A stretch of DNA of 64,000 bases from an uncultured Bacteroidales bacterium. GTDB taxonomy: Bacteria > Bacteroidota > Bacteroidia > Bacteroidales > UBA4417. The number at the start of each line of letters is the position of its first letter. Position 1 is the stretch's first letter. The notes below the pieces were generated by a model. It worked only from the letters and a program-made list of their open reading frames with translations, did no database searches and was not told the DNA's origin. A program made the translations under genes and the position numbers. Shown here in pieces: positions 45,863 through 64,000 of the stretch. The stretch covers positions 1 through 64,000 of the forward strand of contig CAIRMR010000173.1 in assembly GCA_903879715.1 (NCBI GenBank), in the 5' to 3' direction.

Positions 45863-47212
45863 ATGAAAACAATATTGGTCATTGACGATGACAATATGAT
45901 TCTGATGATTCTGAAGCAAACACTTACAAAAGCAGGGTATCGTGTTTTTACAGTTACCAGTGGTGAAGAAGGTATTACATTGCTTGCAACATCCCAGGTT
46001 GACCTGGTGCTTACCGATTATATGATGCCTGGGATGTCAGGGATTGAAGTGCTGAATATTATTAAACATAACCAGCCCTTACTTCCTATCATCATTCTGA
46101 CCGGCCATGGAGATGTCGCTCTTACCATTAAAGCGATACAACTTGGCGCTGTTGATTTCATTGAAAAGCCAATTCATTCAAAAGAATTAATTGAAGTTAT
46201 TAAACGGACACTGGAAATCAGTGAGCAAAACATGAGTGTTTCGCAACCTTTTACGAGAGATACCCGTAAAATGATTGAGGAAAATACCCTGATCGGTAAA
46301 GTTCCGGTGATGAGGGAAATATTTAAAAATATAGGACGAATTTCCTTAAACAGAATAAATGTGCTTATCACCGGGGAAACTGGTACGGGTAAAGAACTGA
46401 TAGCAAAGTTGATACACCATAGTGGCATTACTCGCGATTTCCCATTTATAACCATTGATTGCTCCGCGCTTAATGATGACACCCTTCAGAAAGAACTATT
46501 TGGTTACGAAAAAGATGCATTTCCCGGAGCAAAGGAGAATAAGAGAGGGAAATTTGAAGCCGTTGGTGAAGGCACTATATTCCTTGATGAAATCTCGAAT
46601 CTTTCTGACAATTTTCAGGTAAAATTATTCAGAATTCTTCAGGATATGGAATTTGAAAAGCCCGGACTTACTGAACTTTTACCTTTAAAAGCAAGAATTA
46701 TTGCATCAACAAATAAAAATCTCGAACAACTTATTGCTGACAGTCGTTTTCGGGAGGAACTTTATTACAGGCTTAAAGTATTTACCATTGATCTTCCTCC
46801 TTTACGAAAACGCAAAGACGATATAAACGAGTTAACCTATTTCTTTATACAACGTTACAACCGGAAGTTGCAGAAAAATATCAACCAGATAAGTGAAGGG
46901 GTTTTTGAAAAACTAAAAAATTACGACTGGCCAGGAAATATCAGAGAATTAGAAAATTTAATTCTTCAGGCTATGATTGTTGGCCGGGGAAATGCGTTGG
47001 ATAAGGATAATATTTCAATTCCACAAAATGCGCAGACCATGGCAGGAATCTCAATAACAGAACTTACCTCATTGGACGAAGTTGAAAAAGTTTATATCAA
47101 ACTGGTTTTGACCCAGGTTAAATGGAATAAAGTTGAAGCATCGCGCGTTCTGGGTATATCCAGGCCTACCTTGAATGCTAAAATTGAGAAATACGGGATA
47201 AAAGCAAACTAA
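45863..47212 (+). CDS. Orphan NtrC-family response regulator with altered GAFTGA loop
   Basis: A 449-residue protein in three parts. The receiver domain (1-118) has the phosphoacceptor Asp52 (TDYMMPG), DDD acidic pocket (8-10) and Lys102. The AAA+ domain (about 142-370) has Walker A GETGTGKE (171-178) and Walker B TIFLDEIS (238-245). The C-terminal Fis-type helix-turn-helix (about 425-449) is VEASRVLGISRPTLNAKIEKYG. The loop that contacts sigma-54, normally GAFTGA, reads DAFPGA (218-223), so activation of sigma-54 is uncertain. No histidine kinase is adjacent. It lies directly upstream of the DUF4402/chaperone/adhesin genes and is the obvious candidate regulator. Confidence 0.92.
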   Translation: MKTILVIDDDNMILMILKQTLTKAGYRVFTVTSGEEGITLLATSQVDLVLTDYMMPGMSGIEVLNIIKHNQPLLPIIILTGHGDVALTIKAIQLGAVDFIEKPIHSKELIEVIKRTLEISEQNMSVSQPFTRDTRKMIEENTLIGKVPVMREIFKNIGRISLNRINVLITGETGTGKELIAKLIHHSGITRDFPFITIDCSALNDDTLQKELFGYEKDAFPGAKENKRGKFEAVGEGTIFLDEISNLSDNFQVKLFRILQDMEFEKPGLTELLPLKARIIASTNKNLEQLIADSRFREELYYRLKVFTIDLPPLRKRKDDINELTYFFIQRYNRKLQKNINQISEGVFEKLKNYDWPGNIRELENLILQAMIVGRGNALDKDNISIPQNAQTMAGISITELTSLDEVEKVYIKLVLTQVKWNKVEASRVLGISRPTLNAKIEKYGIKAN

Positions 47213-47676
47213 ATACTGATTCAGAAACAGATTCATTTCTTGGAGCCTTACGCTCTCATAAGTTCTTTTAAATATCGAACAAGGATTAACGATTTTTGAT
47301 TTAAGAAGCGAAATGCTGCTGACTTTATCTATCGCTGATCCTTGTTTCTTGTTTTTCCATCAAATCGTTCTCCTCAGTTTAAACGGATTCTCTGTTTCTT
47401 ATCAAAGAAGCAAATACTTTATTTTCCACTTTCAAGTTTGCGATCCTATGATCAGTATTATTGACAACCCCTACATGTAATATATATTTACATTACAAAT
47501 TAATTAATTTACATATTTCAATTTTCATAACAATCTATATATTATGCTTTTATGATCATTAATTAATTTTTTCCTAACATTGTTGTTAATTATATTACAC
47601 TTAACTCCTACCAAAGTCATTCATGTGTATTAATTTAGCCGTGCGGTTAAAGCAGTCCGTATATATCTCTTACGCA
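47213..47676. other. Intergenic region upstream of the first DUF4402-like gene
   Basis: No gene is supported here. A long-range inverted repeat (AACAAGGAT near 47278 and ATCCTTGTT near 47337) may form a terminator-like structure for the regulator transcript. The last 200 bp are very A/T-rich, as expected for a promoter region, but I see no clear consensus boxes. Confidence 0.4.
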
Positions 47677-48105
47677 ATGAAACAGACTCGGTTATTTCTA
47701 ATATTATCAATTCTGGCAGTAGCATCAGCAACAGGATTCGCCCAAACATCAGTAACAGGCCATGTTTTTGCTGAGGTAGTTGAATCAGTTAGCGCCAGCT
47801 CCTATTCACAATCGTCTGTTACCATGCAGAGAAACCAAACTGAAGGAATTGATTTCGGACAAATAGATATCAAAAGTGCAGCATCAGCTTCCTGCTCATT
47901 AATATTAGGACAAGCAATACTTACAAGTAACAACAATAAACAAATTATGATGGAAACTTCCGCTTATGGCAACCAGGGCCTGGAAGGTAACGCAATAAAC
48001 GGAAAACAATCCATCAACCTTCAATGTCTTCCCAGCGAAAGCAAGCTTGATCTGGCAGCTACCGAATATACAGGGAACATTAATATCGTACTGGCTTATA
48101 ATTAG
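47677..48105 (+). CDS. Divergent DUF4402-like secreted protein
   Basis: The ATG at 47677 gives 142 residues with a textbook signal peptide (ends GFAQ); an ATG at 47623 would add 18 residues ahead of it. The mature part resembles the neighbouring DUF4402 proteins: FAEVVESV opening, GIDFGQI in place of the usual LNFG motif, and the C-terminal strand NINIVLAYN with penultimate tyrosine. It is shorter and lacks the VGATLNV motif, so membership is likely but not certain. It is the first of the pilin-like genes downstream of the response regulator. Confidence 0.6.
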   Translation: MKQTRLFLILSILAVASATGFAQTSVTGHVFAEVVESVSASSYSQSSVTMQRNQTEGIDFGQIDIKSAASASCSLILGQAILTSNNNKQIMMETSAYGNQGLEGNAINGKQSINLQCLPSESKLDLAATEYTGNINIVLAYN

Positions 48106-48404
48106 CAAATAGCTTTCAATAAAAGACAAATCCTACGCGACGCAACATTTTCCTGTTTCATTTCTTTCTTTCAAAAGATAGGAAAGAATTATAAGCATAT
48201 TTTAGATTTCTATAAAAAATCGGCACTCGAGTTCTTTAATGCATTACCAATTGCTTCTGTTTAGGGTTTTCTATTTCAGGTGACTATGCTAAGAAAATTA
48301 TGGGGTAATATCAAGTTCATTTAAAATTAAATCAATTTGATTATTTGAAACCTGGATCACAGGCTTTCTGATTCATCCTTAATTCTCTGAGAGTTTATCT
48401 CCGT

Positions 48405-48427
48405 ACTAGCCAATCGGCTAGTTTTTT
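48405..48427 (+). terminator. Intrinsic terminator upstream of the DUF4402 unit
   Basis: A perfect 7-bp stem ACTAGCC / GGCTAGT with an AATC loop is followed by a T-run (48423-48427). It lies 300 bp after the first DUF4402-like gene, whose transcript it may end. Confidence 0.8.
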
Positions 48428-48469
48428 CTCAATTTGCAATTCAGTTTGTCTCAAATTGATAACATTGTT
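48427..48469 (+). promoter_or_regulatory. Conserved far-upstream block, copy A
   Basis: About 43 bp are shared with 50671-50713, including the identical 18-mer CAAATTGATAACATTGTT (48452-48469). Both lie almost the same distance (261 and 259 bp) before a DUF4402 ATG, while the sequence in between has diverged. The position suits an activator-binding site. Confidence 0.45.
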
Positions 48470-48606
48470 CCAGCTTTATATTCTTTAAACTTCACACAAA
48501 CCTTTCCGGGAAGAATATTACCATATTTTTATATAACTGATTATATGATATTTACAAAACTTTTATGGGTTACATTTATCTTTTATCTGCTTTATATTGC
48601 AATTTA

Positions 48607-48655
48607 TGGCATAGTTTGTGAATTCTATGTTTCATCGCTCAAAACGATTTAAATC
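48607..48655 (+). promoter_or_regulatory. Sigma-54-like promoter and leader block, copy A
   Basis: TGGCATAGTTTGTGAA (48607-48622) matches the sigma-54 -24 element well, but the -12 element has GA instead of GC. It begins a block that is conserved in copy B to the start codon and contains the palindrome GATTTAAATC (48646-48655), 42 bp before the ATG. Confidence 0.35.
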
Positions 48656-48687
48656 CAACTAACAATAACTTTTAAAAACTCAAATCA

Positions 48688-49200
48688 ATGAAAAACATTA
48701 TTAAATTTTTTGCGATTGCTACAGTCGTTCTCGGTTTTGCTACATCTTCATTTGCACAGGTTTCTGCAACCGCAACTGCAACCGGAACTATTATCACACC
48801 TATTACCATAACAAATGCCGGCAATATGAATTTTGGCAATGTTGCAGTTAGTGCAGTTGCCGGAACTGTAATTCTTGCACCTGCAAGTACTCGTACAATC
48901 ACCGGTGGTGTAACTCTTCCAGCTGTTCCGGGTACTGTTGCAGCTGCTCATTTTGCTGTTACCGGTACAAGCAATTATACCTATGCTATTACTCTTCCTT
49001 CAGCTGCTACTACGGTTACATCAGGAGCTAACACAATGACGATTAATGCTTTTACAAGTAATCCAGGTACAACCGGAACTCTTAGCGCTACCGGCACTCA
49101 AACAATTGATGTAGGCGCTACACTAAATGTAGGCGCTAACCAGGCTGCCGGCACATATGTATCCTTAACACCCTTCCAGGTAACTGTTAATTATAACTAA
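48688..49200 (+). CDS. DUF4402 pilin-like secreted protein, copy A
   Basis: The 170-residue protein has a signal peptide (ends SFAQ) and a single DUF4402 beta-sandwich domain: ITITNAGNMNFGNVAV, HFAVTGTSNYTYAITLP, IDVGATLNVGANQAAGTY and the terminal strand FQVTVNYN with penultimate tyrosine, a feature shared with chaperone-usher pilins. It is rich in Thr, Ala and Gly. A paralog of identical length is at 50930; the mature parts are about four-fifths identical by eye while the signal peptides differ strongly. It is probably a surface-structure subunit; the PapD-like chaperone downstream supports this. Confidence 0.82.
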   Translation: MKNIIKFFAIATVVLGFATSSFAQVSATATATGTIITPITITNAGNMNFGNVAVSAVAGTVILAPASTRTITGGVTLPAVPGTVAAAHFAVTGTSNYTYAITLPSAATTVTSGANTMTINAFTSNPGTTGTLSATGTQTIDVGATLNVGANQAAGTYVSLTPFQVTVNYN

Positions 49201-49219
49201 CAGATTTCGAAGACATTAA

Positions 49220-49254
49220 AGGGTGTGAATGGATTTTCATTCCACCTTTTTTTT
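49220..49254 (+). terminator. Intercistronic terminator, copy A
   Basis: GGGTG-T-GAATG (49221-49231, bulged T) pairs with CATTCCACC (49238-49246) around a 6-base loop, followed by eight T. It lies between two DUF4402 genes. The equivalent stem in copy B shows a compensatory base-pair change. Confidence 0.82.
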
Positions 49255-49307
49255 ATCCTTTTATTTATCTATTATTTGCAACGCTTTATCATTACAATCT
49301 TGTAATC

Positions 49308-49823
49308 ATGTTCAGATATAAATATCCTCTCATAGTACTAGTTATTGTTTGCTTTTCATTCAAAGCTTTCAGCCAGGCCAGCGTTACGACCCAGGCCTTT
49401 GCCGAAGTGATTTCAGCATTAACAGCTACGGAGACATCACAGCTTAACTTTGGCAAATTTTCGCCCGAGGTGCAGGGAGGCCAGGTTATAGTTACTCCCG
49501 ATGGAATACGCTCCACCAATGGATCTGTAATTTTGAGCGGCGGCATAGCCAACTCTGGAATTTTTTATCTAACCGGCGCTCCTGATGCAGCATTCTCCAT
49601 ACAGCTTCCCAGCGGTCCTGCAGTACTAGTTCATCAGAATTCAAACAAAACCATGATTGTCACTAATTGGGTATCATATCCACAGGCAGGAAATGGCACG
49701 GGCATACTAACTAATGGCCAACAGTTTATTTACCTGGGAGCTACACTTAACGTAGGATCTATGATTGACAACCCGGTTGGCTTATATTCCGGTGCTTTCA
49801 ACCTGACATTTGCTTATAATTAG
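49308..49823 (+). CDS. DUF4402 pilin-like secreted protein, second type
   Basis: A 171-residue protein with signal peptide (ends AFSQ) and one DUF4402 domain: LNFGKFSPEVQGGQVIVTP, GIFYLTGAPDAAFSIQLP, YLGATLNVGSMIDNPVGLY and the terminal NLTFAYN, again with penultimate tyrosine. It differs clearly from copy A and may be a minor or tip subunit. It lies 107 bp after copy A beyond a terminator, so it would be expressed by read-through or from its own promoter. A decayed paralog is at 51551. Confidence 0.8.
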   Translation: MFRYKYPLIVLVIVCFSFKAFSQASVTTQAFAEVISALTATETSQLNFGKFSPEVQGGQVIVTPDGIRSTNGSVILSGGIANSGIFYLTGAPDAAFSIQLPSGPAVLVHQNSNKTMIVTNWVSYPQAGNGTGILTNGQQFIYLGATLNVGSMIDNPVGLYSGAFNLTFAYN

Positions 49824-50135
49824 ACCTGCTTTTCTAAACCTCCAGATAAAGTGTTGTCGCAAATTGAGATAAACATGTTTTTCAATTTTTTATATTAGAA
49901 ATAATTTCAATACTAAACAGTAGTTCGCGCTAACAGATTTCCTAAGACTCCTCAAATTCATTCAGGTAAATTGATAAATACAAATTCCGGCGTAGAATTA
50001 ATCCACTAAGTGGGTTTCCATCAGAAAAATATTCTATACTATCCAACAAGGGTAAAATAGTTGAAGTTATACTAAAAAAGAAATTTAAATATTGAAAATA
50101 CGAATTAGTGTTGGATTAATTCGTTGTTTTTGAGC

Positions 50136-50176
50136 CGTAAATTCCATCAAGGGTTAATTTCCTTGATGGTTTTACG
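50136..50176 (+). terminator. Strong hairpin, terminator-like, in the gene-free region
   Basis: The inner stem CCATCAAGG (50144-50152) / CCTTGATGG (50161-50169) is extended by CGTAAA / TTTACG (50136-50141 and 50171-50176). A short T-run follows the inner stem. It lies more than 300 bp after the nearest gene. Confidence 0.65.
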
Positions 50177-50670
50177 TTAAAAATAAGTTCCAGGGGCACT
50201 GATTTACACAAACAACAGGTTTAAATTTTCGGGCGCAGAATATTCAGTATTTTCAATCGTGAAAAAGCGATCTAAATCTGTCTTAAACTAATTACAAATT
50301 CCTGCTTCCTTTTTCACTATATTTATCATACATGGAATGTGAGTGAATATTTTCATATTTAAAATCCATATCCCTAAATTTTCCTTTTAGAATAAAGATG
50401 ATCACAAATCGAAAAACCAATAACATTCACAATTCCTCTGGACATTTTTTTCGTAAAGTGATTTTATAGCTGTAGTTCGGAATAATTACTTCAGACTTGT
50501 CCGGATATAAAGTCCGTTGGATTGCAGTAATCTGGTTAAACAATCCATAAGACATCTAGTACAATAGCATATAATGTTAATCATTCGTGAATTTATGAAA
50601 TCTCAGTCAAAGATTTTCTTAAATATATTGTTGTTGATGGACAAATTTGAAATTTAAATCTACTTCCATA

Positions 50671-50713
50671 TCTCATTTTGCGAATTCAATTGTCGCAAAT
50701 TGATAACATTGTT
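50671..50713 (+). promoter_or_regulatory. Conserved far-upstream block, copy B
   Basis: It matches 48427-48469, with the identical 18-mer CAAATTGATAACATTGTT at 50696-50713, 259 bp before the ATG at 50930. Confidence 0.45.
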
Positions 50714-50851
50714 TTAGGTACTCTCCTTTTGACGAGTCTCAAATTAACTTAAAAAAAATAAATTTTTAAATACATATTAACCTGATTATCAATTTATTGG
50801 TATTTTAAATTAATTTATTCCCATTTCAGTTTAAATTTAGCCAGGAGGTTT

Positions 50852-50899
50852 TGGCATGGTTTGTGAAATTTGAATATCATCGCTCAAACGATTTAAATC
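50852..50899 (+). promoter_or_regulatory. Sigma-54-like promoter and leader block, copy B
   Basis: TGGCATGGTTTGTGAA (50852-50867) differs by one base from copy A, and similarity between the units starts exactly here after unrelated upstream sequence. The palindrome GATTTAAATC is at 50890-50899, 40 bp before the ATG. Confidence 0.35.
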
Positions 50900-50929
50900 C
50901 AACTAAAATAACTTTAAAAACTCAAAACA

Positions 50930-51442
50930 ATGAAAAAATTATCCATCATCTTTTCGGTCATTGCTCTCTTCACAATCACATCAGTTACTGTAAATGCTCA
51001 GGTTACCGCTACTGCAACTGCAACTGGTACTATTGTAACCCCAATCGCCATCACAAATTCAGGTGATATGAATTTTGGTAATGTTGCGGTTAGCGCAACC
51101 GGCGGAACAGTTGTTCTTGATCCTGCCAGTACCCGCACAGTTACTGGAGGTGTTACTCTTCCAGCTGTTCCCGGTACTGTAACAGCAGCTCATTTTGATA
51201 TTACAGGTACAGCTGATTACACTTATTCCATTACACTTCCTTCTACAGCAACTACAGTAACATCTGGTACAAATACTATGACAGTTGATGCGTTTACCAG
51301 CAATCCTGGTTCAACTGGAACACTCAACGCAGTCGGAACACAGACCGTTGATGTTGGCGCAACTTTAAATGTATCAGCTTTACAAGCTGCCGGTACTTAT
51401 ATTTCAGGAACTCCATTTGATGTAACTGTGAACTATAACTAA
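50930..51442 (+). CDS. DUF4402 pilin-like secreted protein, copy B
   Basis: A 170-residue paralog of the protein at 48688, aligned end to end without a gap: signal peptide ending NAQ, ITNSGDMNFGNVAV, HFDITGTADYTYSITLP, VDVGATLNVSALQAAGTY and the terminal FDVTVNYN. Strong conservation of the mature part beside divergent signal peptides suggests selection on the exported domain or gene conversion. It is followed by a conserved terminator and the decayed second-type gene. Confidence 0.82.
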   Translation: MKKLSIIFSVIALFTITSVTVNAQVTATATATGTIVTPIAITNSGDMNFGNVAVSATGGTVVLDPASTRTVTGGVTLPAVPGTVTAAHFDITGTADYTYSITLPSTATTVTSGTNTMTVDAFTSNPGSTGTLNAVGTQTVDVGATLNVSALQAAGTYISGTPFDVTVNYN

Positions 51443-51463
51443 GACATATTCAAAAAGGTTAAC

Positions 51464-51497
51464 GGGTGTGAAAGGATCTTCTTTCCACCCTTTTTTT
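51464..51497 (+). terminator. Intercistronic terminator, copy B
   Basis: GGGTG-T-GAAAG (51464-51474, bulged T) pairs with CTTTCCACCC (51481-51490) around a 6-base loop, then seven T. The A73-T82 pair replaces the T-A pair of copy A and a G-C pair replaces a G-U pair, so the structure is conserved by covariation. Confidence 0.85.
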
Positions 51498-51550
51498 ATG
51501 TATATTTCTCAATCATTTGCCTTTTCCTCAACTATTTTAGTCCACAATTC

Positions 51551-52059
51551 ATGTCCAGATACTTACTACTACTTCTTCTGACTATTTCTTTATCCTTCAA
51601 GACTTTCAGTCAGGCGAGTAATACCGCACGGGCTTTTGACGAAGTAATACCGGCATTAACCGCAATGGAAACATCTCAGCATAACTTTGGCAAGTTTTCG
51701 CCCGAAGTACAAGGTGGCCAGGTAATTGTTACTCCTGATGGAATTCGTTCGACAAGTGGATCTGTGTTTTGCGTGGAGGAATTACCAAATCGGGTATTTG
51801 TTATTTAACCGGCGCACCCGACGCGTCATTTTCCTTTCAACTTCCCAGCGGACCTGCATATCTTGTTCATCAAAATTCAAGTAAAACTATGATTGTCAGC
51901 AACTGGGTTTCATATCCGCATGCAGGAAATGGTACCGGAATATAGGGAAATGGCCAGTGATTCGTATACCTCTGAGCAACACTAAATGTTTGATCAATGC
52001 TTGATAATCCTGTGGGACTTTATTCAGGCGCTTTTATCCTGACATTTGCGTGCAATTAA
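51551..52059 (+). pseudogene. Decayed DUF4402 gene, paralog of 49308
   Basis: The first 72 codons match the gene at 49308 (HNFGKFSPEVQGGQVIVTP is intact). A one-base deletion near 51768 (GTGTTTTGCG against GTAATTTTGAGCG) shifts the frame and gives a stop at 51806. In the corrected frame homology resumes (YLTGAPDASFSFQLPSGPA) and continues to the last strand ILTFACN, but four in-frame stops follow (one TAG and three TGA near 51945-51995). The penultimate tyrosine codon has also become cysteine. The gene is therefore dead unless read in short form. Confidence 0.88.
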
Positions 52060-52207
52060 GCAATAAAAAAGCCTTTTTTAGAAAACGATACAAATAAGCA
52101 GTGTTTTTTTTTGAAAAAGCATATTACATTATTACTTTATGGCTATTAACACTATATAACTCTCTGCGCTTCACTCCGACGGCTTGTACAACTAGACATT
52201 AAAAGGC

Positions 52208-52225
52208 CGGGGCAATAAGGCCCCG
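52208..52225. repeat. GC-rich hairpin upstream of the chaperone gene
   Basis: CGGGGC (52208-52213) pairs with GCCCCG (52220-52225). It lacks a T-run and resembles a partial form of the CCCCGACC palindrome at 16519. It may terminate or separate transcripts before the chaperone. Confidence 0.45.
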
Positions 52226-53232: not shown

Positions 53233-56200
53233 ATGAAAATAAAACTATTCACTCGCAAGCAAAATTTCCAGACGATATTGGGTATCGCTGTTTTACTTGT
53301 TTTAACGGGGATTAGTAAGTTGGGGTGGGGACAGACTGTGGGCGATTACCAAACGAGAGCTTCTGGTTCCTGGAATGCTAATACAACCTGGCAAATGTGG
53401 AATGGTGTGGGTTGGGTTAATTGTGTTGCAGGTGATTACCCTGGTGCTTCCTCTGGAGCAGGTATAGTTACAATAACCAACAGCAGAAACGTTACAATAA
53501 CAGCAAATGTACCAAACACTATCAGTTCACTAACAATTCCTGGCGGAAACCAAATTTCCGGTATTTCATTTTCCGGTACAAACTCTTTAACAGTTACCAA
53601 TGCAACTGCAATTACATCAAATTCAGTTAATGACTATAAAAGAATAATTGTTAATGCAGGAAATTTTACCACAGGTTCTTTAGTCACAATTTCAGGAGGA
53701 GACACACAAGATGCGTATCTGGAAATTTCAACAGGAACTGTAACTGTGTTAGGAAATATTACATTAAATGCTGCATCTAACCTTAGAAACTATATATTAT
53801 TTACGGGTGCCGGCACTTTGAATATCGGCGGGAGCATGAGCGGTGGGGGCATAACCAGCACTGCTGGAGGAGGAACCAATCCCACTTCCGGTACAGTAAA
53901 CTATTATGGCAGCAGTGCTCAGAATGTAGGCGCTTACACCTACTTTAACATTACACTATCAGGAGGAAATACCAAAAGTATTCAGGGAACCACAACAATA
54001 ACTAATATCCTGGATATCCAGCAAGGCGCTCTGAATATTAACGGAAATACGCTAAACATTGCAGGCCCTGTTACCCGGGGAGGTCTGAGTGCAGGCACAA
54101 TAACGGGTAGCTCAACCAGTAATCTAAATATAACTGGTATCGGAGTATTCAACGACTTTTATTTTACCAATGCAACTGAGAACTTACTTAACCTAACTTT
54201 AAACAGAGTCGGAGCCAACATTAATTTAGGCTCTGATTTAACCCTTGCCGGCACATTGGCTCTCACAAACGGAATAATTACGGCAACAGGCAAAACAATC
54301 AGCCTTGCCAGTAATGCTGCCGCTTCGTTATCTGCCGGTTTAGGAAGCTATATTAGTGGTAGTTTATCAAGGGCAATGGCAAATGGCGGCGGCATATATA
54401 TTTTCCCGCTTGGAGCTTCTTCCTGTGGTTCTCATTGGCTTACTCTTTCGGCAGTATCAGGTACTTCTACAACAAAAGTATCTTTCGCCTGCACCGGAGC
54501 TACAACCGGAGATGCAACCATTGACTCTCCTCTTCCAATAAATATTAACTGGCATATAGAGAAAGTCAGCGGTACTTTTACGGATGCTGCGGTAAAGCTA
54601 GACGGCAGCGAAATAGATTTCACCAGTGTTGTAGCACAATCTGCATCACAAACGGGACCATACTCAAAAGTAACATCAGTCCCTGCAGCAGGAAGTATAA
54701 CCGCTGCAAGCATTGGAACAGTGACAACCGATAAATGGCTGGCTATCGGAACATCTACTTTAAAAACATACTATGCTTACCAAACAGGCGGTTGGAATAC
54801 TCCTGTAACATGGACCTTAGACCCAAGCGGAACTACCCAGGTAGGTTCCTCAATTCCCAGAGATAATGATTTTGTAATTATTTTACCCGGGCGTACAGTT
54901 ACATTACCGTCAAATATTGCAACTTCAGGACTTGATATAAGTATTGAAGAAGGCGGTTTTTTAGATCTTTCAAGCTATCAGTTTATATCCGGACTATCAA
55001 AGCTAAGCGGCCAAGGCACTTTAGCCATTTCTTCCAATATATTTCCAACACCTATTACAACCAATACTTTTATCAATGCAGGCGGCGGAACTACCGAATA
55101 TAGAACATCAATCAATTTGCCATCGCAGTCTACTTATAATAATCTTACAATTAATGCGAGTGGAATAACCGTAACACAAACCATGGATCTTTTGCTGAAT
55201 GGAAACCTGCTCGTAAAAAACGGTACATTCAGGATTAACGATAATACGGCCCGAAGGTTGCATCTTACAGTTAACAAAGATGTTACTGTTAACACAGGTG
55301 CTTTTATAACTGTAGGTACAGGTGCAACTAACACAACGACTAATCCTTTAAATATAATAGGGGGAACTGCGCCATTTATCGACTATTATGATCAGCAATC
55401 GCACCGGATAGTATTAAATGGCAATTTCACCAACAATGGAACGGTACGTTTTACAAACCTGACCTATCCTGTTTTTAATGCATTTCCTCCTACAACATCA
55501 GGTACAACAACAGGATTTGCAACTGTTTATTTCCAAGGGGCTTCCGATAATACCCTACTCTGTGCCGGAACAACCGACTTTTATAATTTAGTTCTTGATA
55601 AGGGGATTGATCAGACTTTCAAATTAACCATTTATACATCGGGTTCATCGTATGCCAACTTTCGTTTGTTTGGGGCTAATGTGGCAGGTGGCGACGGGGG
55701 TGGAATCAATCCTAATCTGAAAAAAGCCTTGTGGATACGAACGGGTACATTAGTTTTAGAAGGTTTAACTATGATTCCTTCACTCACTGAAGGAAATGCT
55801 TCAGAGGGAGGAGCAACCCCGAATTCAGACTTTTATATTCCAGCAAATGGCGCACTAATACTCAATGGAACGGATGTAGTAGTTTTAACAACAGCCGACG
55901 ATTATCGTGAAGTAAATCTGGCATACGCAACTGCTGCACCAAACAGTGTGTCCATGGGAATTACAGCTGGCGCAACGGGATGTGCACTTTCACTGTACGG
56001 CAAACTACAAGTTGACAACGGCTATCTTTCGACCCGTGAATCGGGAGGTATTATCACATCAAGTGTTTCACCTGGTCAGTTTATCCTTAACAATGGTACT
56101 GTTGATGCAAAGCAATTCCTGGGATCTACGGGATCTGCTTCCTACCAGCAAAATGGAGGGGGGTTAATTCTCAGGGGGCGTTTTCAGCGCACATTTGTCT

Positions 56201-59200
56201 ACAGCTCTGTTGCAAATTTAACCGATGTTTCCTCTTCTACTTTAAGTAATGTGAGAGCAACAAGTGGTATTTCGGCTACATTCGGAACCTTTAACATGAA
56301 CAACACAAGCAACGTTTTTGCTATGTCGGGCGGAACAATACGCATTTACGATGTTTGTGGCGATGGAACAAGTGCCGCGCAGCAAAAAGCTTTTGATGTT
56401 TTATCATCTACTTCAAACAGTAATGTTACAGGAGGAACAATCGAAATGATGCCTGTCACAGGTTCGGCACCTGCCACGGATTCACCATTTTTCCTGATTA
56501 CTTCAAACGCGAAGCTGGGTAATTTAATTATTAACCGTAGCAGCAGCACTTCGGTTGTACAGTTAAATACCTACCCATTGGTATTACTCAATAATCTCAC
56601 ACTCACTTCAGGATCATTGTCGGCAAATAATATTGATGTTACTGTTGCCGGTAACATTACCATTCAAAATGGAACAACCTATACAACCGGAACTAATACT
56701 ACTATCTTAAATGGTTTATCAACTCAAACATTTACAGTAAACCTGGCAACGGCCTTTTCATTAAACATACTTTCCATTGACAAACCTGCTGGAAGTATCG
56801 TAAACTTTGCGGGGACGCAAACTGTTATCAATATTAATGACAATTTCATGTTGGCACTAGGAACACTTAACGACAACGGCAATACAATTAATGTCTACAA
56901 AAATGTGTTCAATTCAGGTTTGCATGCAGGCACAGGTAAAATTGCATTTGTTGGCACAACAGCTCAGACTATTGATGGAAATGGAATTTTCAACAATGTG
57001 GAATTAAATAACAATACAGCTGTAACTGCTCCAGTGTCGTTGACCGCAAACATGACAATTAATGGGGTGCTCACTTTTTCGCGGGATAAACTCTTTAACA
57101 TCGGAATCTATAATCTAACGCTGAATTCATCTGCTTCAATAGTAAATGGCAGTTCAACACGATATGTCCAGACATCCGGCAATTCAGGCGATGGGGGTCT
57201 TACAAAAGTATTTTCAGCAACCACTGCTTTTATTTTCCCGGTAGGAGCACCTTCGACAAGTCACGTTGGGATTCCTAAATGGACCCCGGCAACCATAGGG
57301 TTTAACACTGCCCCTACTACCTTCGGTTCCATAACCGTAATCCCTGTTGGGTACGAACATCCGGCTACTACGGTTAATAATCAAAGTTTATCTTATTTCT
57401 GGAGAGTAAAATCTACCGGTTTCGTTGGAATTCCTATCAATTCCGTGACCCATACATTTACTTATGAGCAAACGGATGTAGCAGGCATTGAAACCAATTA
57501 TATTCCTTCTGTATATAACCAGACAGCCTATACCTGGAATAATGGAATAGCTGCAAATATTAACACAGTAACTAATACGATTAGTGATTGGTTATCACCT
57601 ACTAACAGTACTAATTTTCTGGATGGAGATTATACAGCAGGAGATAATATTACTGGTGGAGGCACCTTTGGATCGCCGCGAAAATTTTTCAGTATAGCCA
57701 GCGCTGCATGGAATGTAAATACAACCTGGTCATATACATCAGGAGGTACATCAGTTCCAGCCGGAACAACAGAAGAAGTCAATTATCCCGGGCCCAATAG
57801 TATTGTAATTATTGAAAACAATAAAACGGTCACACTAACGGCGAACCAAAGATGTGCCAGTCTTCAAATTGCAGCAGGGTCTGTACTCGATATCTACACA
57901 TATTCCGGTAGTGTTTTTAGTATGGTGTTAAATCATCCTTCCGGGAATGGCCTTTTTAGGGTAACTACTGCTGTAACTGTTGCCAATGTGCCGAAATTAT
58001 TTTCATTCCCAAATAACAGCGACTTTTCAGATTTCAATAACAACCAGGGAACCACTGAGTTCTATGATATTGATGGTGCTGTTGGTGCCCTTTATATATT
58101 ACCTTCGAATGTAACAACATATGGTAATCTTATGGTCACAGCTAAAGGCGGGGACAATATCGTTCTGCCGAATAATACTTTAACAACTATCAACGGCAAT
58201 TTAACCTGTGGCGGTGATAATACGCAAGCCTGGATCACAATGAGTTGGAATACAACCGGAAGTCCATATTATTCAGGAACTTATAACCCAACTGTTGAAA
58301 AAACCGTACATGTAACAGGAGATATGTTTATCAATAATGGTACCTTTCTATTTCTGGATGATCAGGCACCACAACATTTAATTGTTGATGGAAATGTTAC
58401 AATTGCACCGACTGCCGTTTTTGATACTTACAATAACTACCCTATTAACAATGGCACTGCTGTCAGATTAAATTCTTTTACTATTGGTGGTAGTTTTATT
58501 AATAACAGTAATGTTAACCCCAGTGCAAGGTTTATTAATGGAAATAATTATGTAAATCTGACATTTTGGGGAAACACTAACGAATTAATTACGAGCACAG
58601 GTGGCGCAGCGCCCAATACCATTTTCAATAATGTTACCATCAACAAAGGAAAATCACAGGCTACAACTCTCACTTGTGATATTGGAGGCACTCTCTCAAC
58701 ACCAACTGACAACTGGCTGACATTGCAGAACGGCACTTTTAAGTATATGCGTAACGTGAATACAGATTTCACGGTTAGTACTGTTACTCCATTTACAATT
58801 CCTGTTACTGCAGCCTTCCATTCGGAATATACGACTGCGAATAAAATACTTTTTGCAAATAGTGCGTCCAATACCAACGATGTATTTTTAAATGGAAAGC
58901 TAAAGGTGGTTTGGGGGAATGTCTATATCGGACCAACAAACAACATTACAAACAATAATAACGATATTGAGTACTCAGGAAGCGGCGCATCCGAAATTGA
59001 AATCACGGGTGGCAACCTCTTCGTAAATGGCCAGATAAGACAGAATGCTTCTTCAACCGCAGGAATACTAACGTATAAGCAGTCTGGAGGAAATGTTACT
59101 ATTAACGGAAATGCGGCTAATACTACCAATGCAAAACTCGAAATCTTAAATTCAGGCGAGTTCACCATGTCGGCTGGTACGTTAACAATTTTAAGGGGCG

Positions 59201-62200
59201 GTGGAGGAAGCAGTTTTGGGGATTTATTCCTTCGCCCCGCTACAGGTTCGGTTACCGGAGGGGATATCATATTTAGCAATAATTTAAGTGGTAACAACCA
59301 GCAATATCTTTTGGATGCAACCCTACCGTTAAACAACCTTATAATTACCGGCCAAACCATTGCAACCGTTTCATCAGCAACCGTAAAGCTAATGGTGAAT
59401 CCGCTGGTTTTAAACGGAAATCTTACCCTTACCAATTCGCAAAGTATATTAGATGTTAATTCAGTTTACAATTTACCCCTTACTGTAAAAGGTGACTTCA
59501 CAAATAATGGTATATATAACCATTATAATAACCTTACCAATTTCAGCGGAGGTACTCAGACACTATCAGGCACTGCTGCTACCGATTTCTACGATTTGAA
59601 TGTCAACCCGGTAACTAAATTAACACTTAGCAAAGATGTAACTGTTTTTGACGATTTAATCTTAGGGAATGGTACTTTAGAGTGTACTACCTTTCTGGTA
59701 AATGTAAAAGGCAATATAACAAATAATGCTACATATACTAATTCCAATACCACCAGTGGAGTTATACTAAATGGGAGTTCGTTGCAGCGCTTATCAGGAA
59801 CCGGCACATTCGGTCAGCTGGAATTAAATAATACTGCAGGTGCTGTAATAGAAAACAGCATAACCTTAACTAAAGACCTGGTTCTCAATAATGGCATTTT
59901 CGATATAACTGAATACTTGTTGACATTAGGGCAAAACAGCAGTATTGTACCTAAAGGAACCGCTTTCAGTACCACAAAAATGATAACTTCTGATGGTGTA
60001 TGGAGTAACGTGGGAATCATGAAAGTATTTGGAACTCCGTTAGCTACCACTTTTATCTATCCATTGGGAACTCCCGGTAAATATACACCAGCTGTATTTA
60101 CCATAACAGCCAATGGGGCAGTAGGTTCTATACGTGTTAATAATATAAATAGCCGGCATCCGGCAGTTATAGATCCGGCAAATGTTTTGAAATATTACTG
60201 GGAAACTGAAAGCATCGGGATTTCAGGTTTCTCAGGCAATTTGATGCTGTATTATTATGCAAGTGACGTTGCAGGTGGTCCTGAAAGCAGTTACATCGCG
60301 GCTCAATTGCTTACACCCGGCACCAACTGGAGTAAGGCAGCTACAGGACCGGGAACAGACAATGTGAATGAGACTAATCATACTATCACTTTTAATTACA
60401 ATAATTCGAGCAATCTGACAGGCCAATATACTGCCGGAAATGATGCAGCAATACCTACTATTGTGCCTCAATACACCAGTAATAGGGATGGAAACTGGAC
60501 TGATAATACTATTTGGGACTATTCGGGCCCATTACCTGCTTATCCTTGTCCGGTTGGCGGCCCTAACGGATTTATTGTAACAGTAGATCATGTGGTTACA
60601 GCCAATGCAAATTATTGTTTTGCTTATAAAACAACCATAAACAACAAACTCAAAGCTGTATCTCCCTATTATGGCCATAACTTTGGATCAGTCTACGGCG
60701 ATGGCACTTTATACCTCGAAAGCTTCGTTTTCCCTGCCGGAAGGTACTCTGCATTTATTGATTGCGCAGGCAACAGCACTATTGAATATGGCGGTACCGG
60801 CAATTATGATATTAATGCAACTCTTTATTCCTCCACTCCCCGCATACTGTTATCCGGTACAGGAACCCGAATATTGCCCGATAAGGACCTGATCATCTGC
60901 AAACAATTGAAGATAGATGATGGGAATTTAGGTTCACTCACTTTAGACAACAGCATTAATAACCGCAAGCTTACTATTAATGGAACTTTTGAACGATATA
61001 ACAACGGAATATTTAATTGCGGAACAGGTTCAACAGCTGTGGTATCTTTCGAAGGTTCAGTTGCCCAAACTTTAGGTGGCCCGCTCGGTAATTTTTCAGG
61101 GACCAGCGCTTTTAATGATTTTGAGATAAACAATATCTCCGGGCTTTCAATAAACACCAATGGAAATGTAGAAGTAAATGGTAATTTGCTGCTCACCAAC
61201 GGAATAATATCCACTACAAGCACGAATAAACTAACAGTTACCAACTTTTCTGTTTCATGTGTGATACCAAATGGCGGGAGTGCAACTTCTTATATTGACG
61301 GGCCGTTTATTAAAAAACTAAACCAGGGAGATCCCCTTTTCAAATTTCCTGTAGGTAAGAAAGCTTTTGGATTGGGTAACAATTTATCGTTGCGGGCAAC
61401 TCAAACTGGCACACTATTATGGGTTGTTGAATATTTTAATCCTAACATTTATCCAAGTTTTTCTGCACCATTAACTGCTGTAAATACAAAAGAATATTGG
61501 AATGTCAGCGGTGTTCCAGGTACGAGTCAGGCATATATAGATATGAGCTGGAATAATGAAAGTGATTTAACTCCTTTGATGACACAAAATGGACTATCGG
61601 ATATGCGGGTTGCAGAGCATAATGGAACGGACTGGATTGAAATAGCATCAGAAACCGTTAGTGGAAGTGATAATTATAATGGAAGTGTTGAAACATCAAA
61701 CCGCACCATAATTCAATCCGGTTCAAGAAACTATACTGTTGCCTGTGTAAATACACCCAAGCCAAGAATAAAAATGTCTCCTTCAGGTGCTGTTTGCGGT
61801 ACTGGTGGCATACCTGTAATCTTAACAACGACTCTCCCAATTGTTGCGCCATATACAATTGATTATTCCGAGAATGGAGTCGCAAAATCAATTTCTCCGG
61901 CCTCCTTTCCAGCTACAATACCTACTCTGGCTGCAGGCGGAGTATATCAATTAACCGGGTTTACGTATAACTATCCTGTCGGCTCATTACAAACCGGTGT
62001 ATTTGACAAAACCCCGGTTACCACTTTTGCTATACCAACTACCTCAGCAGCTGGTATTGATCAATCTCTTTGCGGAGCAACAAGTGCGACTTTAGCCGCG
62101 AATACACCAATTTCGGGTATTGGATTATGGAGCATTGTTAGCGGCTCAGGAGGAACTGTAGTAACTCCAACAATACCCTCAAGTTTGTTCGACGGAACAA

Positions 62201-64000
62201 ATGGCTCAACATACGTTCTGCGTTGGACTATCAGCAATGGAGCATGTATTTCTTCGGATGATGTTACAATTTCATTCCCCCTTTTAGCGGCACAACCATC
62301 CGGATTTACAGTAAGTTCACTGACAGTTTGCCAGGGAAGCACAGGAGTTATATATTCGGTTCCCAACGATCCGTCAGTAACTTATAATTGGAGTTACAGT
62401 GGTACCGGAGCTACAATAAATGGTACGTCAAACTCAGTAACTGTCGATTATAATACCACTGCAACAGCAGGCAATCTGAGTGTTACTGCTACCAATAGTT
62501 GTAATACAAGTGCAGCAAGGAACATTGCAATTTCAGTGAATTTAGTAGGTCAATGGTTAGGTGGGACATCTGGCTCCTTAAACGATTGGAATACAGCATC
62601 CAACTGGTCATGTGGCTATATCCCTGACCTGACCGTAAATGTTCAGGTTCCAAATGTCCTCAATAAACCAATACTCAGCACTGGAGCAATCGGAGCAGTT
62701 AAGGATATAGTGATAGCTGCCGGTTCATCCGTGACGATTACAGGCAACACACTCCAAATTGCAGGAGGTATAACAAATAGCGGAACTTTCACTACCACAG
62801 CAGGAACCATTGAAATGAAAGGGACTTCAGCACAAACTATTGACGCAAATGTATTTGCAGGCAATTCCATTGAAGGATTGAGAGTCAATAATCCGGCAGG
62901 GGTTACATTGCAAGGCCCGCTTAACGTCACAGGAGTAGTGAATGCAATTAGTGGTAACCTAATTTCGAGTGGGAATTTAACACTCATTTCTTCAGTAACA
63001 CAAACTGCGCTTATTGATGGTACAGGCACCGGAGCAATTACAGGTAATGTAACCATGCAACGTTATCTGCCCTCAGGCTATGGATACAAATACCTGAGTT
63101 CACCTTTCCAGGCAGCTACGGTTAACGAACTTGCCGATGATGTTGACCTCCTGGCTTCGTTTCCAAACCTGTATGTTTATGACGAAGACAATCACAGAGA
63201 TTCATCCGGCGTTTCTATTTATACAACAGGCTGGACAACGTATGTAACAACTACGAATCTTTTATTACCAATGAAAGGTTACGCTGCCAATCTTGGTAGT
63301 TCGGCAGCTGCTAAAACTGTTGCCATTACGGGAGTAGTTAACAACAATATTGCCACTACACAAACTCTTTATAACCACAACAGGTCTTTTACATTAGGAT
63401 TTAACCTGGCAGGAAATCCATACCCATCCCCTATCGACTGGAATGCATCTGCTGGCTGGACAAAAACGAATATTGACAATGCTTTGTACTTTTTTGATAA
63501 TGGTACAACAAATCAGTATACCGGCTCATATAGTACCTATGTGAACGGAGTATCCAGTAATAGCATTGCCGGAAATATCGTGTCTTCGATGCAGGGATTT
63601 TTTATCCATGTTTCCGATGGAACATTCCCTGTAACTGCCTCATTAGGAATGGACAACCGCGTGCGGGTTAACAACTTGACACCAGCATTCCACAAATCGT
63701 CTTACGAATCGCTCCAACCCCTTGTACGGATAAATGCAGCTTTCGAAAACGCAAAATTATCAGATCCGGCTGTTTTATATTTTGACGATCTGGCCTTAAC
63801 TTCATTCGATAAACAGTTAGATGCGTTAAAACTGCTGAACACCGATGAGAGTGTACCTAACTTATATGCTGTTACACCAAACTCCGAAAGACTTTCAATC
63901 AGTGCAATACCCTATCCGGTTGATAGTATAAGTAAATATCCACTGGGCATAAAAACAGAGAAAGAGGATTGGGTTCTGATGTCAGCTTCACAAATTGAGA
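53233..64000 (+). CDS. Giant modular secreted surface protein, 3' truncated by the window
   Basis: The ATG at 53233 opens a frame with no stop to the window end, more than 3,589 residues. A signal peptide ends near GWGQT. Five modules each begin with a W-N-x-x-T-x-W motif (Trp at 47, 521, 1493, 2422, 3119); the first four end in an F-x-[FY]-P-[LV]-G motif (about 389-394, 1333-1338, 2274-2279, 2703-2708). Between are Asn/Thr/Gly-rich beta-helix-like repeats (LTLTNGII, LNNGIF, LNGNLTLTNSQ). Residues about 2840-3100 look like Ig/PKD-like domains, and the region from 3270 on resembles that preceding T9SS sorting domains (LAGNPYPSPIDW). It is probably a T9SS-exported adhesin; the sorting domain itself would lie outside the window. 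Confidence 0.85.
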   Translation, partial: MKIKLFTRKQNFQTILGIAVLLVLTGISKLGWGQTVGDYQTRASGSWNANTTWQMWNGVGWVNCVAGDYPGASSGAGIVTITNSRNVTITANVPNTISSLTIPGGNQISGISFSGTNSLTVTNATAITSNSVNDYKRIIVNAGNFTTGSLVTISGGDTQDAYLEISTGTVTVLGNITLNAASNLRNYILFTGAGTLNIGGSMSGGGITSTAGGGTNPTSGTVNYYGSSAQNVGAYTYFNITLSGGNTKSIQGTTTITNILDIQQGALNINGNTLNIAGPVTRGGLSAGTITGSSTSNLNITGIGVFNDFYFTNATENLLNLTLNRVGANINLGSDLTLAGTLALTNGIITATGKTISLASNAAASLSAGLGSYISGSLSRAMANGGGIYIFPLGASSCGSHWLTLSAVSGTSTTKVSFACTGATTGDATIDSPLPININWHIEKVSGTFTDAAVKLDGSEIDFTSVVAQSASQTGPYSKVTSVPAAGSITAASIGTVTTDKWLAIGTSTLKTYYAYQTGGWNTPVTWTLDPSGTTQVGSSIPRDNDFVIILPGRTVTLPSNIATSGLDISIEEGGFLDLSSYQFISGLSKLSGQGTLAISSNIFPTPITTNTFINAGGGTTEYRTSINLPSQSTYNNLTINASGITVTQTMDLLLNGNLLVKNGTFRINDNTARRLHLTVNKDVTVNTGAFITVGTGATNTTTNPLNIIGGTAPFIDYYDQQSHRIVLNGNFTNNGTVRFTNLTYPVFNAFPPTTSGTTTGFATVYFQGASDNTLLCAGTTDFYNLVLDKGIDQTFKLTIYTSGSSYANFRLFGANVAGGDGGGINPNLKKALWIRTGTLVLEGLTMIPSLTEGNASEGGATPNSDFYIPANGALILNGTDVVVLTTADDYREVNLAYATAAPNSVSMGITAGATGCALSLYGKLQVDNGYLSTRESGGIITSSVSPGQFILNNGTVDAKQFLGSTGSASYQQNGGGLILRGRFQRTFVYSSVANLTDVSSSTLSNVRATSGISATFGTFNMNNTSNVFAMSGGTIRIYDVCGDGTSAAQQKAFDVLSSTSNSNVTGGTIEMMPVTGSAPATDSPFFLITSNAKLGNLIINRSSSTSVVQLNTYPLVLLNNLTLTSGSLSANNIDVTVAGNITIQNGTTYTTGTNTTILNGLSTQTFTVNLATAFSLNILSIDKPAGSIVNFAGTQTVININDNFMLALGTLNDNGNTINVYKNVFNSGLHAGTGKIAFVGTTAQTIDGNGIFNNVELNNNTAVTAPVSLTANMTINGVLTFSRDKLFNIGIYNLTLNSSASIVNGSSTRYVQTSGNSGDGGLTKVFSATTAFIFPVGAPSTSHVGIPKWTPATIGFNTAPTTFGSITVIPVGYEHPATTVNNQSLSYFWRVKSTGFVGIPINSVTHTFTYEQTDVAGIETNYIPSVYNQTAYTWNNGIAANINTVTNTISDWLSPTNSTNFLDGDYTAGDNITGGGTFGSPRKFFSIASAAWNVNTTWSYTSGGTSVPAGTTEEVNYPGPNSIVIIENNKTVTLTANQRCASLQIAAGSVLDIYTYSGSVFSMVLNHPSGNGLFRVTTAVTVANVPKLFSFPNNSDFSDFNNNQGTTEFYDIDGAVGALYILPSNVTTYGNLMVTAKGGDNIVLPNNTLTTINGNLTCGGDNTQAWITMSWNTTGSPYYSGTYNPTVEKTVHVTGDMFINNGTFLFLDDQAPQHLIVDGNVTIAPTAVFDTYNNYPINNGTAVRLNSFTIGGSFINNSNVNPSARFINGNNYVNLTFWGNTNELITSTGGAAPNTIFNNVTINKGKSQATTLTCDIGGTLSTPTDNWLTLQNGTFKYMRNVNTDFTVSTVTPFTIPVTAAFHSEYTTANKILFANSASNTNDVFLNGKLKVVWGNVYIGPTNNITNNNNDIEYSGSGASEIEITGGNLFVNGQIRQNASSTAGILTYKQSGGNVTINGNAANTTNAKLEILNSGEFTMSAGTLTILRGGGGSSFGDLFLRPATGSVTGGDIIFSNNLSGNNQQYLLDATLPLNNLIITGQTIATVSSATVKLMVNPLVLNGNLTLTNSQSILDVNSVYNLPLTVKGDFTNNGIYNHYNNLTNFSGGTQTLSGTAATDFYDLNVNPVTKLTLSKDVTVFDDLILGNGTLECTTFLVNVKGNITNNATYTNSNTTSGVILNGSSLQRLSGTGTFGQLELNNTAGAVIENSITLTKDLVLNNGIFDITEYLLTLGQNSSIVPKGTAFSTTKMITSDGVWSNVGIMKVFGTPLATTFIYPLGTPGKYTPAVFTITANGAVGSIRVNNINSRHPAVIDPANVLKYYWETESIGISGFSGNLMLYYYASDVAGGPESSYIAAQLLTPGTNWSKAATGPGTDNVNETNHTITFNYNNSSNLTGQYTAGNDAAIPTIVPQYTSNRDGNWTDNTIWDYSGPLPAYPCPVGGPNGFIVTVDHVVTANANYCFAYKTTINNKLKAVSPYYGHNFGSVYGDGTLYLESFVFPAGRYSAFIDCAGNSTIEYGGTGNYDINATLYSSTPRILLSGTGTRILPDKDLIICKQLKIDDGNLGSLTLDNSINNRKLTINGTFERYNNGIFNCGTGSTAVVSFEGSVAQTLGGPLGNFSGTSAFNDFEINNISGLSINTNGNVEVNGNLLLTNGIISTTSTNKLTVTNFSVSCVIPNGGSATSYIDGPFIKKLNQGDPLFKFPVGKKAFGLGNNLSLRATQTGTLLWVVEYFNPNIYPSFSAPLTAVNTKEYWNVSGVPGTSQAYIDMSWNNESDLTPLMTQNGLSDMRVAEHNGTDWIEIASETVSGSDNYNGSVETSNRTIIQSGSRNYTVACVNTPKPRIKMSPSGAVCGTGGIPVILTTTLPIVAPYTIDYSENGVAKSISPASFPATIPTLAAGGVYQLTGFTYNYPVGSLQTGVFDKTPVTTFAIPTTSAAGIDQSLCGATSATLAANTPISGIGLWSIVSGSGGTVVTPTIPSSLFDGTNGSTYVLRWTISNGACISSDDVTISFPLLAAQPSGFTVSSLTVCQGSTGVIYSVPNDPSVTYNWSYSGTGATINGTSNSVTVDYNTTATAGNLSVTATNSCNTSAARNIAISVNLVGQWLGGTSGSLNDWNTASNWSCGYIPDLTVNVQVPNVLNKPILSTGAIGAVKDIVIAAGSSVTITGNTLQIAGGITNSGTFTTTAGTIEMKGTSAQTIDANVFAGNSIEGLRVNNPAGVTLQGPLNVTGVVNAISGNLISSGNLTLISSVTQTALIDGTGTGAITGNVTMQRYLPSGYGYKYLSSPFQAATVNELADDVDLLASFPNLYVYDEDNHRDSSGVSIYTTGWTTYVTTTNLLLPMKGYAANLGSSAAAKTVAITGVVNNNIATTQTLYNHNRSFTLGFNLAGNPYPSPIDWNASAGWTKTNIDNALYFFDNGTTNQYTGSYSTYVNGVSSNSIAGNIVSSMQGFFIHVSDGTFPVTASLGMDNRVRVNNLTPAFHKSSYESLQPLVRINAAFENAKLSDPAVLYFDDLALTSFDKQLDALKLLNTDESVPNLYAVTPNSERLSISAIPYPVDSISKYPLGIKTEKEDWVLMSASQIE

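Follow-up and report, generated by a model that had tools for sequence, protein, structure and literature searches.

A probable chaperone-usher pilus operon with DUF4402 pilins in a divergent branch within Bacteroidota

How pilin-like proteins of the DUF4402 family might reach the cell surface is the question raised by a gene cluster at the end of the window, the 64,000-nt stretch of DNA analysed here, which forms the start of a 91,523-base contig from an uncultured Bacteroidales bacterium. The first-pass annotation assigned a regulator, DUF4402 genes, a PapD-like chaperone and a giant protein to a surface-appendage locus in which no usher was visible, and offered two ways out, namely export of the subunits by T9SS or an unrecognised pore, or an usher lying outside the window. 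The cluster continues beyond the window edge, and the second option proved right, with the gene of a 1478-aa usher at contig positions 64927-69363. The reported lack of an usher holds within the window and ends 927 nt past its edge, and because the usher starts there, export of the pilins by T9SS or by an unrecognised pore becomes unnecessary. The locus is read here as the full operon for a chaperone-usher pilus with DUF4402 pilins, from a divergent Bacteroidota branch (probability about 0.87), pilus assembly being predicted from the genes.

The chaperone-usher pathway is known from Escherichia coli and its kin. In the accessible portions of the sources cited here, the archaic class is placed in Proteobacteria, Cyanobacteria and Deinococcus-Thermus, with the other two classes being proteobacterial (PMC4654587), the archaic pathway is likewise assigned to proteobacteria and cyanobacteria and to certain further groups, Deinococcota for example (PMC10104325), and the usher family is listed without Bacteroidetes (PMC4827864). 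The available part of one source describes P. gingivalis as lacking reported ushers or fimbrial chaperones and has its fimbrial proteins processed by signal peptidase II (PMC4789730). Similarly, in the excerpts at hand, type V pili are described in Bacteroidota with protease-mediated assembly (PMC8551831), fimbria assembly in the phylum is called poorly known (PMC5789003), and one survey excluded chaperone-usher systems (PMC4793230). DUF4402 is not mentioned in the open-access literature searched, and no chaperone-usher system of this type in Bacteroidota appears in the titles and abstract openings of the open-access matches listed, a scope that has subscription journals mostly, and bioRxiv preprints as well, outside it.

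Layout of the cluster and its regulator

The cluster comprises the following features (contig coordinates, identical to window coordinates up to 64,000):

45863-47212, + strand: NtrC-family response regulator with the Pfam domains Response_reg, Sigma54_activat and HTH_8 (receiver, sigma54-activating AAA+, Fis-type HTH)
47623-48105, + strand: P160, a secreted 160-aa protein ending LAYN, in a position shared with relatives in other loci
48688-49200, + strand: D1, DUF4402 pilin (predicted), ending NYN (PF14352, E 6e-29)
49308-49823, + strand: D2, DUF4402 pilin (predicted), ending AYN (PF14352, E 5.2e-25)
50930-51442, + strand: D3, DUF4402 pilin (predicted), a duplicate of D1, ending NYN (PF14352, E 3.4e-30)
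51551-52058, + strand: broken D2 duplicate (pseudogene), a repeat of 49333-49822 at 75-76% identity
52246-53124, + strand: PapD-like periplasmic chaperone (predicted; PapD_N, E 0.0018, sub-cut-off; fn3_5, E 3.4e-6)
53233-64401, + strand: giant adhesin of 3722 aa with a PKD-like domain and a T9SS type A C-terminal sorting domain (TIGR04183), running past the window edge
64398-64922, + strand: D5, DUF4402 subunit with a short N-terminal extension (PF14352, E 8.4e-18), past the window
64927-69363, + strand: usher of 1478 aa, assigned by fold and profile comparison, past the window

The NtrC-type assignment of the regulator is borne out by its three Pfam domains, and the giant protein by an open reading frame that starts at 53233 and, followed to contig position 64401, is 3722 aa long. 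The stop of the adhesin gene overlaps the start of D5 by 4 nt and the usher starts 4 nt past D5, so that adhesin, D5 and usher very probably share a transcript. The genome has six DUF4402 matches, every one of them inside this cluster, and a single copy of the usher gene. An Rfam scan of the window at the gathering threshold gave no matches.

Part of the cluster arose by a segmental duplication over 48427-52058, which takes in D1, D2 and the stretch ahead of them, in copies spaced 2236-2245 nt apart and 75-82% identical. Two duplicated DUF4402 units had been described here, and the duplication itself stands, but the second downstream copy at 51551-52058 is a pseudogene, in which an 85-aa open reading frame is followed by stops, four of them in frame within the DUF4402 profile match. 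The first small gene (47623-48105) had also been called DUF4402-like, a label that is not upheld by Pfam or NCBIfam, neither of which has a match to P160 at E<=0.01. Other loci have relatives of P160 at the corresponding place, 17 of 19 of them with a YN ending, which makes a divergent minor pilin a possible reading of this protein.

The regulator at the head of the cluster has relatives scoring at least 495 bits in 12 of 112 usher loci (L042 and L091 among the 112 being one contig), the next score being 313 bits, and these lie either 6.3-8.3 kb upstream of the usher on the same strand or, on the opposite strand, no more than 0.3 kb downstream of it. Each locus spans only about 20 kb, and such nearness is therefore partly a matter of construction. 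The sigma54 site has the motif TGGCACN5TTGCW. Its strict form, with at most one mismatch, has no match in the window, and a looser form occurs upstream of 3/53 D-type genes, 0/19 P160-type genes and 3/915 other open reading frames, and before none of the four window genes tested. With no convincing sigma54 site, it is position that links the regulator to the operon, which on that basis it probably regulates.

The usher and its divergence

The 1478-aa protein consists of a signal peptide, an N-terminal domain, a barrel with a plug-like insert, C-terminal domains, a linker and four SPOR domains, and it is an usher by its predicted fold. It is identified by fold together with profile comparison, and membership by the standard profile fails. 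A Pfam scan of the protein finds no usher domain and returns SPOR, weak matches of Ig-like type toward the C-terminus and some fainter ones, and a genome-wide search with the standard usher profile PF00577 has no match up to E 10. Similarly, PF00577 matches none of 33 usher cores at E<=0.01 and reaches its cut-off in 0/395 genomes of the phylum and 0/295 genomes of the same order. Sub-cut-off matches occur in 4/395 phylum genomes, all within members of the new usher family, and in 2/295 genomes of the same-order sample, one inside a distant family member (G032) and the other in a genome without this usher (G263). A conventional usher directly downstream had been named as grounds for refuting the usher-less view, and this holds by half: an usher does lie there, but it escapes the standard usher profile. 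The failure of that profile would explain why such ushers were missed.

Profile comparison brings the relationship out. An hhalign comparison of 33 aligned usher cores with FimD, SfmD, HtrE, YehB and YraJ, five ushers of E. coli K-12, gave 89.6% over 484 columns, against 2.65% for a control with the reversed K-12 alignment. The plug and its flanks alone gave 83%, and in the 54 columns that directly follow the plug the identity is 26%. By eye, an usher-like stretch ('NVPYTFMPKGEMQYTIAGA') can be seen after the plug. The barrel with plug alone gave 45%. The N-terminal domain (0.1%) and the C-terminal domains (1.6%) show no profile similarity to those of FimD. In addition, HMMER profiles of the usher, chaperone and pilin matched no usher, chaperone or pilin chain among the PDB sequences.

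The fold was predicted with AlphaFold2 on the core of a 96%-identical relative (L073) from a 70-row alignment, drawn from the best 80 of 356 usher-relative loci after 10 were removed by hand as truncated, near-duplicate or not needed. The model has a mean pLDDT of 82.1 and a pTM of 0.64, the plug-like insert being at low confidence. Foldseek against the PDB places FimD or PapC in all of rows 1-18 (E 3.6e-25 to 2.4e-12), and in VIA rows 1-15 are ushers with Z 17.1-20.4, the first non-usher barrel following at Z 15.0. The best VIA row is 7lhh_C (Z 20.4, 534 aligned, rmsd 7.1), and the usher pore row 2vqi_B aligns 375 residues at rmsd 4.2 (Z 20.2). By hand count, about 25 strands lie between residues 174 and 623 of the model, outside an insert at 291-344, in agreement with the roughly 24 strands of an usher barrel. 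The domain ahead of the barrel covers model residues 16-134, and the VIA usher rows begin at residue 156 or later.

As a side observation, residues 33-110 of the 841-aa core, within the N-terminal domain, weakly match a copper amine oxidase N-terminal domain rather than an usher N-domain; this match is found in 5/33 usher members at E<=0.01 and is sub-cut-off in the member shown.

A new usher profile is supplied with this analysis, which is able to find members in the phylum that the standard profile misses. Near-full-length members, spanning at least 700 of its 824 positions, were counted by hand in 57/395 phylum genomes; at E<=1e-3 the profile has matches in 119/395 genomes, many of them only to the C-terminal Ig-like part or to a fragment. 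A more distant usher clade (L066-L070, 23-28% identity) is accompanied by small secreted subunits of a different kind, a few of them with YN at the end, and four of its five loci hold a weakly matching chaperone. One genome carries two usher loci of differing branches (L054 and L070), and L096 has two D5-usher pairs in tandem.

Pilins, chaperone and gene linkage across the phylum

The DUF4402 proteins had been taken for pilins of the chaperone-usher type on account of their NYN and AYN endings, which D1 and D3 (NYN) and D2 (AYN) indeed carry, and structure prediction agrees with that view. D3 (50930-51442), modelled from an alignment with 62 other proteins, reached a pLDDT of 92.7. The first 21 Foldseek rows for this model come from chaperone-usher pilus entries, but at poor E (best 0.021). 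VIA gives 50 rows, of which 48 show subunits of chaperone-usher systems or the pilin domains of tip adhesins (Z 5.6-7.5), with Fim, Pap, Csu, Caf, CFA and comparable types represented, and the remaining two are a phage neck protein and intimin. Z values below 8 can reflect a common arrangement, and the persuasive point for D3 is the uniform identity of its matches. Most VIA matches start at model residues 33-38 and leave residues 24-36 (QVTATATATGTIV) as an N-terminal extension, so that the model combines a pilin-type Ig-like fold with such an extension, at middling Z. An hhalign comparison of the DUF4402 pilins with K-12 pilins fails (10%).

Subunit types differ at both ends. YN closes 41/53 D-type subunits, and D5-type subunits end in QE (47/84) or QQ (20/84). 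The predicted mature N-terminal extension has a median of 27 residues in D-type (47/53 measured), 25 in D2 (24/27) and 19 in D5 (81/84) subunits, lengths that were taken heuristically from the first cleavage-like site, with no signal-peptide program behind the figures. By this heuristic the mature N-terminus of the D5 type is about 6-8 residues shorter than in the D and D2 types, and it is proline-rich in the 12 printed examples. Such a short extension would let D5 accept a strand without being able to donate one, as a tip subunit would, and D5 may be the tip subunit. Pfam detects no domain besides DUF4402 in the four intact DUF4402 proteins, and NCBIfam finds no T9SS tail on those at 48688 and 49308 or on D5. 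When the precursors were inspected by eye with the lipobox motif in mind, no typical lipobox was seen, D2 and D5 each having one Cys after Val/Ile in the hydrophobic stretch of the signal. Taken together with the gene context, DUF4402 is best understood as the pilin of a divergent chaperone-usher pathway in which strand exchange is predicted.

The proposed PapD-like chaperone remains a probable assignment, with a PapD_N match (E 0.0018) that is under the curated cut-off and with a match to a profile of five K-12 chaperones (hhalign 82.4% over 110 columns, signal peptide included). Its better Pfam match is to the Ig-type domain fn3_5, above cut-off, and among 22 chaperone relatives at E<=0.01 fn3_5 is found in 12/22 and PapD_N in 9/22. 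The anchor residues of PapD-like chaperones are Arg8 and Lys112. In the alignment, FimC Arg8 is paired with an Arg invariant in 22/22 chaperone relatives, and Lys112 falls outside the aligned part. Since the second anchor residue cannot be placed and the chaperone is known from sequence, gene position carries much of this assignment. The true start of the chaperone may be an internal ATG.

Gene linkage was assessed by co-occurrence in other Bacteroidota genomes, as had been advised, and the DUF4402, chaperone and usher families do co-occur in a recurring order. The usher core is present in 40/295 same-order genomes (G154 and G196 being marginal at E ~1e-3), and DUF4402 is above cut-off in 35/295, all 35 of which have the usher. 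A further three of 38 DUF4402 genomes are sub-cut-off (G219, G241 and G267), and none of these has the usher. The five genomes with an usher and no DUF4402 comprise two marginal matches, one with a contig end close upstream and two distant members. The chaperone profile matches in 36/295 genomes, 34/36 with the usher, and the other two (G007 and G204) are weak matches. Fisher tests gave 2e-40 for usher and DUF4402 and 5e-36 for usher and chaperone, values that both ignore relatedness. The genes for subunit, chaperone and usher thus cluster and co-occur.

A pattern search of genome contigs returned 360 matches, of which 356 encode a usher relative, and by our own reading the record titles of the best 80 of these 356 are all Bacteroidota, with the named strains Chitinophaga ginsengisegetis (DSM 18108, L137) and Daejeonella oryzae (DSM 19973, L144), both culturable, and Seramator thermalis among them. 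Gene order was tallied in these best-80 loci only, near-duplicates such as L101/L102 still included and unlabelled open reading frames below 100 aa ignored, and the locus sets are partly the same contigs (L042/L091, L045/L113, L048/L106). Directly upstream of the usher, 69 of 79 loci have a DUF4402-type gene, 7 a P160-type gene and 3 another gene. A chaperone precedes the usher-adjacent gene in 30/31 testable loci, adjoining it in 8 and lying behind large open reading frames in 22; only 31 loci are testable because many end inside the giant open reading frame. A pilin-type gene stands before the chaperone in 25/26 loci, and in the remaining locus the chaperone is split into two open reading frames. 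This recurrence of the grouping across the phylum supports the earlier view of one surface-appendage locus.

In seven loci (L131, L132, L135, L136, L141, L146 and L150) a lone P160-type gene precedes the usher and no chaperone was recognised nearby. A glycosyltransferase-like gene lies alongside on the opposite strand in the six P160-usher loci inspected; this gene, of about 270-300 aa, was considered as a hidden chaperone and rejected, being glycosyltransferase-like by eye in all 6 loci.

SPOR tail, T9SS adhesin and competing explanations

With its usher barrel carrying a plug-like insert and following domains (by fold), its pilin-type Ig fold, its probable PapD-like chaperone with an equivalent of FimC Arg8 and its compact operon, the locus shares the frame of the classical FimC-FimD and PapD-PapC systems. 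Unlike in the classical pathway, PF00577 is blind to this usher, whose N- and C-terminal domains are unrelated by profile, the pilins are DUF4402 proteins, many ushers carry a SPOR tail and a T9SS adhesin lies inside the operon. As for the archaic (sigma) Csu/CupE pathway, CsuA/B is among the best VIA rows for the DUF4402 model (7zl4_A, Z 7.3; 6fm5, Z 7.2), tied with PapG and FimG; this likeness concerns the pilins, and the accessible text of the two accounts quoted above places the archaic pathway in other phyla (PMC4654587; PMC10104325). Architecture, fold and gene linkage put the locus in the chaperone-usher pathway, as a diverged branch whose pilins form a new family. The SPOR tail and the embedded T9SS adhesin are two additions unseen in the open-access papers searched.

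The tail of this usher holds four SPOR copies (PF05036, E 2.8e-44) and has sub-cut-off RlpA and FtsN matches in NCBIfam. SPOR was found by Pfam (E<=0.001) in 42/67 complete ushers, a set left from 70 ushers after one without a matching open reading frame and two truncated ones; in 54/67 of these the tail reached 60 residues or more and was scanned, and 13 with a tail below 60 aa were counted as SPOR-less unscanned. At septa, SPOR domains bind peptidoglycan from which the stem peptides have been removed. In FtsN and RlpA, which share them with the usher tail, they belong to division or wall proteins, whereas here they sit on an outer-membrane usher. The C-terminal domains of FimD face the periplasm, and given both properties the tail would most simply tether the pore to the wall.

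A sorting domain on the adhesin is recognised by TIGR04183 in a scan of its last 100 aa (E 9.5e-8; score 31.9 bits, cut-off 23); the whole 3722 aa give no NCBIfam match at E<=0.01 and a sub-cut-off Pfam match (E 0.0028). The genome encodes SprA (SprA_N, E 2.2e-152), so that the adhesin has both the sorting domain and the secretion system expected of a T9SS substrate. In addition, the open reading frame directly upstream of the usher-adjacent DUF4402 gene carries a T9SS type A sorting domain in 58/58 loci by NCBIfam and 54/58 by Pfam, the 58 being those where this frame is not a chaperone, usher or DUF4402 gene. An adhesin with a T9SS sorting domain in the operon and sprA in the genome mean that one operon feeds two export machines, and T9SS is relevant to the giant adhesin and not needed for the pilins.

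A mechanism can be outlined from the observed gene content and order, the usher and pilin folds, the sorting domain, the 4-nt overlap and SprA. The Ig-like DUF4402 subunits would be exported by Sec, each with an N-terminal extension usable as a donor strand. Most members of the D1/D2 type also have a last strand, at the C-terminus, that closes with Tyr-Asn. The PapD-like chaperone would lend a strand to each pilin and hand it to the usher, D5 probably capping the fibre as its tip and D1, D2 and D3 polymerising behind it. The four SPOR domains, expected in the periplasm, probably hold the assembly platform on the peptidoglycan, with division sites as a possible place, if they act as the SPOR family does. 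The giant adhesin would be co-produced, leave by T9SS and decorate or complement the pilus. The fuller picture of a deep Bacteroidota chaperone-usher branch, with a SPOR-fastened usher, possibly division-site-steered assembly and an operon that couples a usher-built DUF4402 fibre to an associating T9SS adhesin, is offered tentatively, at somewhat less than an even chance.

Several other explanations compete with the pilus reading or with parts of it. An appendage without an usher, whose DUF4402 subunits exit by T9SS or an unknown pore, would draw on the presence of SprA and on the sorting domain of the adhesin, but an usher-fold gene ends the cluster and is linked to DUF4402 across genomes, and the intact DUF4402 proteins have no other Pfam domain (all four) and no NCBIfam T9SS tail (the three scanned), which leaves this explanation very improbable. 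Even further from the evidence is a type V pilus of the FimA/Mfa1 kind. Such pili have been described in the phylum and resemble the present system in being surface fibres, here predicted from genes, of the same phylum; in the accessible text, however, their assembly is protease-mediated (PMC8551831), whereas a chaperone and an usher lie in this cluster, both unreported in P. gingivalis, where signal peptidase II processes the fimbrial proteins (PMC4789730, in part); the DUF4402 precursors, which on inspection by eye have no typical lipobox, do not suit such a step.

An usher-derived barrel might also export single, non-polymerising surface proteins rather than pili, a reading consistent with the lack of a known filament and with the lone P160-type gene beside the usher in 7/79 loci (from the best 80 of 356). 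It is improbable in view of the extra pilin-type gene, besides the usher-adjacent one, in 25/26 loci readable past the chaperone, and of the long D1/D2 and short D5 extensions, as a tipped fibre would need. The pilus reading could be correct and the T9SS adhesin unrelated, merely sharing the operon, as is suggested by the 8/31 testable loci in which the chaperone adjoins the usher-adjacent DUF4402 gene with no adhesin between. Against this stand the sorting domain on the non-chaperone gene before D5 (58/58 by NCBIfam, 54/58 by Pfam) and the 4-nt overlap with D5 in this cluster, and an unrelated adhesin is accordingly unlikely, though a serious alternative for that part of the scheme.

The chaperone-usher reading proposes a function, that of a pilin, for DUF4402, and it raises two testable questions, whether a secretion pore is positioned by its SPOR domains and whether export by T9SS and export by the chaperone-usher route work together. 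On the remainder of the contig, the gene after the usher resembles an inorganic pyrophosphatase as read by eye, and, similarly by eye, positions 79-91 kb hold a gene set like that of an iron-only hydrogenase/NADH dehydrogenase, accompanied by kinase and phosphatase genes.
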